From the NCBI RefSeq assembly GCF_023845585.1, contig NZ_JAMQHS010000013.1, positions 1 to 64,000 of the forward strand: a stretch of DNA of 64,000 bases, written 5' to 3'. Every line of letters starts with the position of its first letter. The stretch's first letter is position 1. The notes under the pieces were generated by a model. The model had not been told where the DNA came from. It was given only the letters and a program-made list of their open reading frames with translations, and did no database searches. Shown here piece after piece: positions 5,705 through 9,994 of this stretch. The position numbers and the translations under genes are program-made. The DNA comes from Clostridium sp. CMCC3677. GTDB taxonomy: Bacteria > Bacillota > Clostridia > Clostridiales > Clostridiaceae.

Positions 5705-7078
5705 TTATCTTAATAATTGAAGAACTGCTTCTGGTTGTGACTTAGCTTGAGCAAGCATTGCTTGTGAAGCTTGGCTAAGAATGTTATTCTTTGAGAAGTT
5801 CATCATTTCTTTAGCCATATCAACGTCTCTAACTCTTGATTCTGCAGCTTGTAAGTTTTCACTTGAAGTTCCTAAGTTATTGATTGTATGTTCTAATCTA
5901 TTTTGGTATGCACCAAGTTTTGATCTTTCAGTTGATACTTGGTCTATAGCTTTTTGTATTATTGTAACTGATTTGTCTGCTGATTTAGCATTACTTACAT
6001 CTATACCATCAACACCTAAAGATTTAGCTCTCATATCTCCTATTGATAATGCTATATTTTGACCTTCGTTAGCACCTATTTGTAAGTTTGCTCCTACTGA
6101 ATCAATTTTAACATTTCCTTTAGTAACAGTACCTGCTGCTTTTAAGACATCGATTTTTAATCCTTCAGCACCTGCAATTTCATCTTTAATTTCTATAGAA
6201 TTACCTTTACCTGTAATATCTTTTCCACCAACTGTGATTTTTGCATCTGTTCCATTGTTTACTGTAGCAGCTACATCTTTTCCTGTTGCAGCAACATCAT
6301 CTGTTATTTTTCCTAAGCTGACAGCTGATCCAGCTTGATTTGCTGTTATAACTAATTTATTACCTGCTGACGCTGTTGCAGTTGCATCTATTCCTTCTTT
6401 CTTTAAGAAGTCATTAACCTTACCAAGTATATCTGCTGTCTTAGTCTTTGCTGCTAACACAAGTTTTTTATCACCAATTTTTAAAGTTACATCAGCAGCA
6501 CCAATATCTGCATTAGTAGCTATAGCTGTTGTTGATTCTTCTCCTGTTCCTACTACTGTTTTTGTTATTGCAAATTCTGTATCAACCTTAGTTTTATCTG
6601 AAGATCCAGTAACTTTAACTACATCTTTAAGATCATCTCCTAAAGTAGCCTTTACATCAGTTTCTCCATTTAATAACTTCTTAGTATTGAATTCTGTAGT
6701 ATTTCCGATTCTGTCAATTTCTGAAGTTAATTGGTTGATTTCTTTTTGTATTTGTCCTCTATCTGCATCATTGTTAGTATCATTTGATGCTTGAACTGAT
6801 AATTCTCTCATTCTTTGAAGAATTGAGTGAGTTTCATTTAAAGCACCTTCTGCAGTTTGGATCATTGAGATACCATCTTGTGAGTTTCTTGTAGCTTGAT
6901 CTAATCCTCTGATTTGACCTCTCATTTTTTCAGAGATTGCAAGACCTGCTGCGTCATCTCCAGCTCTATTTATTCTTAAACCTGAGCTTAATTTTTCCAT
7001 TGATTTTCCACTGTTAACAGTGTTCATTCCTAGGTTTCTGTGTGCGTTCATTGCGTTCATATTGTGATTGATTATCAT
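5705..7078 (-). CDS. fliC: Flagellin
   Basis: A 457-aa flagellin, the filament subunit exported through the flagellar type III system. Residues 1 to about 140 form the conserved D0/D1 domain (MIINHNMNAMNAHRNL, SSGLRINRAGDDAAGLAISE). Residues about 145-340 are a variable surface region rich in Thr, Ala, Asp and Lys. The C-terminal D1/D0 segment ends with ANNLQ-type and QAMLAQAK motifs and closes in LLR. There are no cysteines. The leader (7088-7122) carries a GGA hairpin and a GGA-containing ribosome binding site, pointing to CsrA repression, and csrA lies about 370 bases upstream. No other flagellar structural gene is in the window, so this is an isolated flagellin locus. Confidence 0.96.
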   Translation of the reverse strand: MIINHNMNAMNAHRNLGMNTVNSGKSMEKLSSGLRINRAGDDAAGLAISEKMRGQIRGLDQATRNSQDGISMIQTAEGALNETHSILQRMRELSVQASNDTNNDADRGQIQKEINQLTSEIDRIGNTTEFNTKKLLNGETDVKATLGDDLKDVVKVTGSSDKTKVDTEFAITKTVVGTGEESTTAIATNADIGAADVTLKIGDKKLVLAAKTKTADILGKVNDFLKKEGIDATATASAGNKLVITANQAGSAVSLGKITDDVAATGKDVAATVNNGTDAKITVGGKDITGKGNSIEIKDEIAGAEGLKIDVLKAAGTVTKGNVKIDSVGANLQIGANEGQNIALSIGDMRAKSLGVDGIDVSNAKSADKSVTIIQKAIDQVSTERSKLGAYQNRLEHTINNLGTSSENLQAAESRVRDVDMAKEMMNFSKNNILSQASQAMLAQAKSQPEAVLQLLR

Positions 7079-7445: not shown

Positions 7446-7607
7446 TTATTTACTCATACTTTCGTATACTTCGCCTCTTACGATTTTAATTTCTCTTGGT
7501 GCATCAATTGCAAGTCTTAAATTGCCTTCTTCACTTCTTATTACTGCAACCTTTATTTTGTCATCTATTACTATATATTCACCTGGTTTACGACCTAAAA
7601 CTAACAT
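7446..7607 (-). CDS. csrA: CsrA, carbon storage / flagellin translation regulator
   Basis: A 53-aa RNA-binding dimer subunit. It has the start MLVLGRKPGEYI, the LRLAIDAPREIKIVRGEVYE core and the key RNA-contact residues Leu4 and Arg44. It is shorter than the 61-75 aa usual for the family and lacks almost all of the C-terminal tail that in other Bacillota takes part in FliW binding. CsrA binds GGA in hairpin loops; in B. subtilis it blocks hag translation. The gene lies between flagellin and a GGA-hairpin RNA on the same strand. AGGGGGA precedes the ATG by about 8 bases. No promoter of its own was seen in the 35 bases after the upstream terminator, so expression may need read-through. Confidence 0.93.
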   Translation of the reverse strand: MLVLGRKPGEYIVIDDKIKVAVIRSEEGNLRLAIDAPREIKIVRGEVYESMSK

Positions 7608-7640: not shown

Positions 7641-7713
7641 TAAAAAAATGGGAGCATACCCTAATTTCATTAGCTTCCTGCTAACTATAATAGGGTTATA
7701 TGCTCCTCCTGAG
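7641..7713 (-). terminator. Terminator between the GGA-hairpin RNA and csrA
   Basis: GGAGCATA...CCCTA (up to 7706) pairs with TAGGGTATGCTCC (7650-7663) and is followed by T7. The loop contains the TTAGC-AGGAA-GCTAA hairpin, and the stem base shares GAG with the CTC-AGGAG-GAG hairpin at 7703-7713, so the two structures compete. Confidence 0.8.
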
Positions 7714-7830
7714 TACTCTCATTGCATCTTGCAATGAGAACAATTTTTAAATTTAAAGTAAAATAACTTCTTGTTATTTTATAAGACAAGCCTCTTCCTG
7801 AGACATTTAAATTCATCCTGAATTATCTTA
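7645..7830 (-). ncRNA. Putative CsrB-like CsrA-sequestering RNA
   Basis: The predicted minus-strand transcript is about 185 nt, starting just after a sigma-D-like promoter and ending at an intrinsic terminator. It has four hairpins with AGGA in the loop: AATTC-AGGAT-GAATT (7810-7824), GTCTC-AGGAA-GAGGC (7790-7804), CTC-AGGAG-GAG (7703-7713) and TTAGC-AGGAA-GCTAA (7670-7684). All fit CAGGA(U/A/G)G, nearly the CsrB repeat of E. coli, CAGGA(U/A/C)G. Two further hairpins without GGA lie at 7717-7739 and 7760-7780. No open reading frame fills it. The adjoining csrA gene makes a CsrA sponge or a csrA autoregulatory leader the best reading; function is inferred. Confidence 0.68.
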
Positions 7831-7837
7831 TATTTAT

Positions 7838-7865
7838 ATTATCGTAAGATTTATTATCCACTTTA
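7838..7865 (-). promoter_or_regulatory. sigma-D (sigma-28)-like promoter of the GGA-hairpin RNA
   Basis: The minus strand has TAAA (7862-7865), 17 bases, then CGATAAT (7838-7844), equal to the TAAA-N15-NNCGATAA pattern of flagellar sigma factors. The start would fall near 7830, right before the first GGA hairpin. A possible sigma-A promoter TTGAAA-N16-TATAAT (7944-7971) lies further upstream. Confidence 0.6.
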
Positions 7866-8074: not shown

Positions 8075-9994
8075 TTATATAACGCTAATATCATCTAAAT
8101 TATTTATGCCATTTAAAATTTCAATATAATCAACAAGAGCCACCTTTATATTTAACTCTTTAATTTTATCTAATTTATCTTCTAAATATGATATTTTATC
8201 TTTAATATTAATTTTCTTATTTTTAATTATAGTTCTTATATCTTCACGTATTTTATAATGATTATTATTGTCTAACCAAGTGTATAAATCATATATATTA
8301 GTAACTAATAATCTATTAGAATTTATATAATTTATTAATTCTTCATTATCTTCATCAAAATTATTAGATTTTAACTTTTCTTCAATCATTGTTGATATAA
8401 GAATATTATTTCTTATTAAATCATAGTTTGGCTTCATTCCATCTATTAATTCTTCCATAGTTCTTAATAATTCTATCGTTACGCCTTCATTCATTTCTAT
8501 AAGATCTTTTTTAGCATCCATAGCTTTATATTGTAATACAAATCTACTTAATAATAGTCCAATAATAGATCCTATTATAACATACACAATTCTATTGATA
8601 CTTAAAACAGCTGTTCCACCCATAAGTGCTGCAGAACCTATTGCTGATATTGTAACGCATATCATATTATATTTATATTCCTTTATATATCCACTTATAT
8701 ATCCAGCCATCATAATAATCATAGTTCTCATAGTTAAATCTTTAAAAATGTAAAATAAAGTTGCAATTATAGCTGTACCTACAAATGTTGATAATATTCT
8801 ATACTTAAATTTTTCTTTAGATACTTCATAATGTGGTTGAACCAATGAATGTATAGTGAATATAATCCATCTTCCCTCTGATAAATTAAAATAATCCATT
8901 ATAAATCCACCAATAGCAACACCAAGTCCTAATCTAAATGCATAAGAAAATCTTAGAGAATCTAGTGCAAAATGTTTTTTAAAAATATACATTGCTTTAA
9001 ATTGGTTTGGTATTTCATCACCTTTATTAATAAGATTATATTTTTTCTTATCTAAACCTTTTAGTTCATATAAGCTAGTTTTTAATAAATGTAAAGAATT
9101 AAGCATTCTTGCTATAATAATGTTATTAGAATTTTTTACATTATATTTTTCTAATAGTTCATTAAATAATGCATCTAAATTTTCTAAGTTATTTTCATCT
9201 TCAAAACATATTTTCACATTATCAATTGATATTATTATATCGTCTTCTATTTCTTTTATTTCATTGATTTGTTCAATATCATCGCCTCTTTTAACTCTTT
9301 CAATATCATCTAAGAGAGCATTTAATTTATCTAATGATAGGGAAATATTTAGTTTTATTCTACTTTCTTCTGTTATATAAAAATGCTCTGCTCTTTTATC
9401 ATAAATAATTTTTCTGAATTCATTTATAGAAGATTTTATTTCATTATCTATTTCTTCAAATGACTCATTATTTCTAATAGCTCTAATCTTTTGTAACATA
9501 CTAGTACAACTTTTTGCTAAAAGCTTATTACCTTTTTTATAAACTCTGTTTCTGTTTGCTATTAATTGAATTGCCATAATAGATACAGCTCCAAACGCTA
9601 ATGATAATAATCTTAATGGTAATTTATCAGCTGTAACTGGAAAAGAAAACATAAATAAATACTGAAGTGTAAATGGAATATAGCTAGGAGAATTTAAGTT
9701 ATAGCATAGTCTATATGCTATTATAAATAGACTTATAAAATTAAGCGGTATGGCTAAGAACATATTGCTTGATGCTAAATACGTAATTATCCCCATTAAA
9801 ACATTGAAAACCATTAGTCCTACTGTATTTTTTACAGGATTTAATGTTAAATCTTTTGTCAAGAATAATAGCATGCCCGTTATGGTAGTAACTCCTATTA
9901 ATATATTGTCATCTCCGAATATAGTTTTAAAAGTTATTACAAATACCATTATAAATATAAATAATATCGTTTGTGATACTATTTTCTTTTTCAT
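8075..9994 (-). CDS. FUSC/aromatic acid exporter-like membrane protein
   Basis: A 639-aa integral membrane protein of the FUSC/ArAE type. An N-terminal block of hydrophobic segments (about 5-145) is followed by a charged cytoplasmic region (about 150-330, rich in Glu, Asp and Ile). A second membrane block (about 345-480), with the recognisable RWIIFTIHSLVQPHYEVSKEKFKYRILSTFVGTA type core, precedes a cytoplasmic tail. Relatives export aromatic acids or related compounds, but the substrate here is unknown. The gene is monocistronic, with its own terminator. Length and tandem layout fit the YccS-like group. Confidence 0.72.
   Translation of the reverse strand: MKKKIVSQTILFIFIMVFVITFKTIFGDDNILIGVTTITGMLLFLTKDLTLNPVKNTVGLMVFNVLMGIITYLASSNMFLAIPLNFISLFIIAYRLCYNLNSPSYIPFTLQYLFMFSFPVTADKLPLRLLSLAFGAVSIMAIQLIANRNRVYKKGNKLLAKSCTSMLQKIRAIRNNESFEEIDNEIKSSINEFRKIIYDKRAEHFYITEESRIKLNISLSLDKLNALLDDIERVKRGDDIEQINEIKEIEDDIIISIDNVKICFEDENNLENLDALFNELLEKYNVKNSNNIIIARMLNSLHLLKTSLYELKGLDKKKYNLINKGDEIPNQFKAMYIFKKHFALDSLRFSYAFRLGLGVAIGGFIMDYFNLSEGRWIIFTIHSLVQPHYEVSKEKFKYRILSTFVGTAIIATLFYIFKDLTMRTMIIMMAGYISGYIKEYKYNMICVTISAIGSAALMGGTAVLSINRIVYVIIGSIIGLLLSRFVLQYKAMDAKKDLIEMNEGVTIELLRTMEELIDGMKPNYDLIRNNILISTMIEEKLKSNNFDEDNEELINYINSNRLLVTNIYDLYTWLDNNNHYKIREDIRTIIKNKKINIKDKISYLEDKLDKIKELNIKVALVDYIEILNGINNLDDISVI

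Follow-up and report, generated by a model that had tools for sequence, protein, structure and literature searches.

A conserved terminator module with CsrA-type hairpins precedes short csrA and flagellin genes in Bacillota and may be opened by CsrA

We analyzed a 64,000-nt stretch of the Clostridium sp. CMCC3677 genome (contig NZ_JAMQHS010000013.1), here called the window; coordinates are positions in it, and its features lie on the minus strand unless stated. A flagellin gene (5705-7078; PF00669/PF00700) follows csrA2 (7446-7607, stop codon included; PF02599, E 1.7e-21), which encodes a CsrA of 53 aa. An ordinary csrA, of 71 aa, sits behind fliW on another contig of the same genome. By its position, the segment 7865-7642 is the leader of this second, short csrA. 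The csrA2 ATG (7607) comes ~35 nt past the U-tract that ends the leader, which leaves no room for a promoter between them. An earlier note on this DNA had described an RNA adjoining csrA; the linkage stands, but the gene is the short paralogue, and the ordinary fliW-csrA pair is elsewhere.

The leader begins with a sigma-D-like promoter (7865-7838, TAAA-N17-CGATAAT), its TAAA at 7865-7862 and its CGATAAT at 7844-7838, 17 nt apart (equivalently, TAAA-N15-NNCGATAA). Folding then places two CsrA-type hairpins, AATTC-AGGAT-GAATT (7824-7810) and GTCTC-AGGAA-GAGGC (7804-7790), both also present in the C. weizhouense locus L021. Two degenerate hairpins follow, at 7780-7760 (loop CAAGAAG) and 7739-7717 (loop CAAGATG), with AAGA in place of GGA; at the first of these, C. 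weizhouense keeps GGA. With two further sites in the terminator region, the minus strand carries four CAGGANG sites in local hairpins, a number reached in 0 of 2000 dinucleotide shuffles (mean 0.03), and the fold z-score of the leader on this strand is -5.4. The promoter, the four CAGGANG hairpins and the terminator are therefore present as the earlier note had reported, with the reservation that the third of its loop hairpins is a stem of just 3 bp, one strand of which is also used by the terminator. A doublet of sites (CAGGANG-N8..38-CAGGANG) occurs three times in the 3.6-Mb genome, always inside the same 450 bases here; because the reversed control pattern occurs four times in that genome, the doublet alone is not rare, while its clustering is.

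The downstream end of the leader is a module of ~75 nt in which a small CsrA-type hairpin, hairpin a, shares one strand with an intrinsic terminator that bears a second CsrA-type loop. In copy 1 (7716-7643; covariance model R2, E 1.0e-8 in the genome), hairpin a (CTC-AGGAG-GAG, 7713-7703) overlaps the 5' strand of the terminator (7706-7651, U-tract 7648-7642), whose apex holds GTTAGC-AGGAA-GCTAAT (7685-7669). Model R2 also finds a second copy between csrA2 and flagellin (7409-7337), overlooked by the earlier note, with its own hairpin a (GCTC-AGGAA-GAGT, 7407-7395), apical hairpin (7379-7365), terminator and U-tract. The general layout can be written as [NNNC]A(N)GGA[NGNNN]...[N3GCAGGANGCN3]...terminator 3' strand, U-tract, and the consensus of a 72-sequence alignment as ACTCAAGGACGAGTAAAT...TCTGCAGGANGCAGA...TATTTACTCGTCTTTTTT. 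R2 supersedes a model of the terminator base only (R1).

Since hairpin a and the terminator share a strand, they cannot coexist, and both of these mutually exclusive helices, along with their overlap, are conserved. Among homologous copies, the terminator with its apical helix has 92.5% of cells paired, a covariation of 0.558 (at most 0.112 in slid controls) and 196 doubly changed cells where shuffles give 58; the shuffles leave the relatedness between sequences in place. The competing hairpin a has 87% of cells paired, 28 doubly changed cells against 10 in the same shuffles, and a covariation of 0.373 (at most 0.087 in slid controls). Compensatory changes in related genomes, which the earlier note had proposed as a check on its hairpins, thus occur in both exclusive helices. 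At one position the covariation is three-way, running through the 5' strand, the shared strand and the terminator strand as C-G-C, A-U-A or G-C-G, and these types recur in separate genera. With a length of only 3-4 bp, hairpin a is poorly formed or missing in some of the copies (16/101 lack a run of 3 consecutive bp). When it is forced to form, ~13 kcal/mol is lost relative to the terminator state, and the terminator stem, which otherwise reaches the U-tract, stops a median of 7 nt ahead of it; a stem ending that far short of its U-tract is not expected to cause intrinsic termination. The module thus has the makeup of a protein-responsive antiterminator, a hairpin exclusive with an intrinsic terminator and both conserved, and the loop sequence points to CsrA as the ligand.

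A search for short CsrA proteins across 84,980 genomes gave 80 loci, from Clostridium, Tepidibacter, Desulfosporosinus, Sporomusaceae, Paenibacillus, Halobacillus, Bacillus and others. The module was found in 70 of 81 loci (120 copies) in a first pass, and the covariance model raised this to ~139 plus-strand copies in the loci of ~70 Bacillota genomes. The next recognised gene after the 139 copies is csrA in 95 and flagellin in 37; an automatic rule assigned neither in 7, but among these, flagellin or its leader can be seen to follow the copies in L028, L032 and L056. The gap from module to csrA is mostly 19-76 nt and commonly ~35, which would not accommodate a promoter. Hairpins with CA(N)GGANG are concentrated on both flanks of csrA, with 140 upstream (1.9 expected) and 98 downstream (2.0 expected), compared with 4 in a control region (2.5 expected). 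Of 56 homologous loci, 39 have a sigma-D-like promoter within the 250 nt preceding the module (3.9 expected from shuffles), which is in keeping with the control by a flagellar sigma factor put forward in the earlier note.

Within the genus, the module follows the short csrA. Among 69 Clostridium genomes it was detected (E < 1e-7) in four, exactly those having a second, short csrA beside flagellin, and the 47 with only a long csrA gave no match at E < 1e-3. A 250-genome sample of the phylum added one genome only, G153, outside the genus, where the module again lies beside a short csrA and flagellin. Weak model matches in G040, G051 and G183, with no csrA-like or flagellin gene nearby, were judged to be chance. 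At the DNA level, only the C. weizhouense genome (G068) shows true similarity within the genus, other matches being short and low-scoring.

The flagellin leader contains a CsrA-type hairpin, GTGGAAAAGGATGTCCAC (7122-7105), followed by an AAGGAGG Shine-Dalgarno sequence, and homologues have the same hairpin. Consensus patterns for sigma-D-like and sigma-70-like promoters found none between the second module copy and flagellin in 32 of 32 loci, so that flagellin at these loci is probably transcribed by readthrough of that module. Some other elements accompany flagellin. The loci L051, L067, L069, L084, L087, L091 and L093 share a conserved hairpin, AATAAGCCGAGTGGCCATGAGGCTTGTTATA, which is located 40-110 nt upstream of the flagellin start and precedes the CsrA hairpin of the flagellin leader; it is seen in Negativicutes, Desulfosporosinus and other groups, and Rfam gave no match for it in L067 or L084. 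Clostridium and Tepidibacter have less strict forms of it, with a short GCC...GGC hairpin and then ATAAATA. An imperfect inverted repeat, GTTGAGAGTGGAGAATGGAGAGTTAAGG ... CTCTCCGCTCTCAATTCTCAACTC, occupies 7320-7190 of the window, between copy 2 and the flagellin leader, and similar repeats are seen in the Clostridium loci L028, L029 and L094. In L036 (2600-2740) and L043 (2620-2780), three to four CsrA-type hairpins and a terminator come after the flagellin gene, which suggests that CsrA may also bind the flagellin mRNA in its 3' untranslated region.

The csrA2 product belongs to the CsrA family by its PF02599 match and by R44, a residue kept in 75 of 79 short-type relatives. FliW binding requires V51, N55 and a C-terminal extension of CsrA (PMC7829508). 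The extension is absent from csrA2, which thus lacks the features of a FliW-regulated CsrA (the extension with V/I51 and N55), and of the 79 short-type CsrAs, 2 have N55 and 1 has I51. With R44 kept and the FliW-contact residues missing, the short CsrA should bind RNA and escape FliW; csrA2 probably encodes a FliW-insensitive paralogue. Tandem csrA paralogues were seen in L028, L029, L047, L049, L052, L063, L078, L091 and L093, several with a module before each; a divergent first copy (MQCRVGDS..., with IKRQ at the RNA-binding strand) is present in L049, L063 and L078. Viral contigs yielded only distant CsrA relatives.

Several known systems resemble parts of this arrangement. CsrB/CsrC and RsmX/Y/Z of Gammaproteobacteria likewise combine several A(N)GGA hairpins with a terminator, and CsrA is the predicted ligand here as well, but the module lies in cis, immediately ahead of csrA or flagellin, has few sites, one of them sharing a strand with the terminator, and comes with a sigma-D-like promoter where UvrY/GacA control the sponge RNAs. 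Rfam gave no CsrB/CsrC/Rsm match at the window leader even at E up to 5, nor one of this type at gathering thresholds in 20 homologous loci. A weak Rfam match to the PutA thermometer at 9712-9777 on the plus strand (30 bits, gathering threshold 51), opposite a coding gene, is probably chance. The RAT antiterminators of LicT/SacY/BglG are bound by their protein at a hairpin that takes up part of the 5' strand of an intrinsic terminator. The module has the same overlap, and by this analogy CsrA would act on it as LicT does on RAT RNA; the ligand would differ, being CsrA at GGA loops, and so does the second site in the terminator loop. We rejected an actual RAT element, given the loop motif CA(N)GGANG and a csrA or flagellin gene next in line, in place of the RAT sequence and a PTS-controlled gene. 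The B. subtilis hag leader also places a CsrA-type hairpin and a GGA-containing Shine-Dalgarno sequence before flagellin, in a genome with a FliW-CsrA pair; hag control, however, is exerted on translation without a terminator, by a CsrA that has the C-terminal FliW-binding extension. In E. coli, the autoregulatory csrA leader contains CsrA sites, and CsrA affects Rho-dependent termination at pgaA. These share with the module the leader sites and, in one case, an effect of CsrA on termination, but lack an intrinsic terminator exclusive with a CsrA hairpin. A literature search of incomplete coverage returned neither CsrA-controlled intrinsic termination nor a csrA-linked RNA in Clostridium or Paenibacillus, and an earlier description is possible.

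The earlier note had read the leader as a CsrB-like sponge that titrates CsrA and so frees flagellin translation. Spelled out, a stable ~190-nt sigma-D RNA would act in trans, and csrA2 would be expressed through leaky termination. The CsrA-type hairpins, sigma-D-like control and csrA linkage of the note carry over. An independent RNA gene acting in trans would have a promoter and terminator such as those seen here, but almost every module is a csrA or flagellin leader. This species has the multiple A(N)GGA stem-loops of a sponge (four sites, one of them a 3-bp stem overlapping the terminator), C. weizhouense has three extra, and L036 and L043 have their hairpins after flagellin. In C. uliginosum (L088, 3215-3340), a sigma-D-like promoter with its own module lies between csrA and another module, the one that precedes flagellin; this unit has no csrA behind it and is the strongest candidate for a stand-alone CsrA sponge. 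What is conserved, however, is the two-state terminator, placed in cis ahead of csrA or flagellin. Extra sponge-like hairpins occur in this species, C. weizhouense and a few others, but 24 of 38 homologues have none between promoter and module; one site would be buried in the terminator stem of the terminated RNA; and hardly any copy lacks a downstream csrA or flagellin. We therefore regard a dedicated sponge as rather unlikely, and "conditional terminator leader" fits this element better than "CsrB homologue".

Another account would have ordinary terminators and untranslated regions with CsrA sites serving translational or stability autoregulation of csrA2 and flagellin, with no termination switch. 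In B. subtilis, hag is repressed by CsrA at two sites of its leader, one of which lies on the Shine-Dalgarno sequence (PMC7652899), and both csrA and flagellin here have GGA within their Shine-Dalgarno sequences. Such autoregulation leaves unexplained the consistent overlap of a CsrA hairpin with the terminator base and its three-way covariation, as well as a full terminator 35 nt before csrA with no promoter between; we consider it improbable, more so than the sponge. That the hairpins are accidents of AT-rich DNA, for which only the low GC content speaks, is refuted by the shuffles of the leader together with covariation across more than 20 genera, and its probability is negligible.

We lean, with some reserve, towards a sigma-D-transcribed conditional terminator that CsrA holds open by antitermination and that controls csrA2 and flagellin. 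Sigma-D would transcribe the leader up to the conditional intrinsic terminator just upstream of csrA2. By default, hairpin a would be displaced as the 3' strand of the terminator emerges, and RNA polymerase would stop, leaving a short RNA only. Free CsrA would instead capture the nascent hairpin a, probably engaging the apical loop with its second site, so that the terminator base could not pair beside the U-tract and transcription would read through into csrA2; the same switch at copy 2 would give readthrough into flagellin. With the terminator ~13 kcal/mol more stable than the hairpin-a state, CsrA would have to act during transcription. Antitermination of its own gene would be positive feedback for a repressor, which makes sense only with translational repression: after readthrough, CsrA could still repress translation of both genes at their GGA-containing Shine-Dalgarno regions, and this could balance the feedback on csrA. 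In this species, as many as three GGA hairpins stay exposed on the terminated RNA, which may thus also bind CsrA as a sponge.

The prevailing view is that bacteria with FliW control CsrA through this protein and not through RNA. A 2015 study found FliW to be anti-correlated with the two-component system that drives Csr sRNAs (PMC4682653), and a 2020 review counted the joint action of FliW and sRNAs in any species as undetermined (PMC7652899). We give an even chance to the wider proposition, in which a widespread Bacillota RNA family uses CsrA as an antiterminator of intrinsic terminators and provides a flagellin-linked, FliW-insensitive paralogue with RNA control of its own, beside the FliW-CsrA pair. 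The module offers this question a defined, testable RNA in tractable, non-pathogenic species, such as C. ljungdahlii and paenibacilli. If true, the proposition would add control of intrinsic termination to the modes of action of CsrA, and a new RNA family for annotation.
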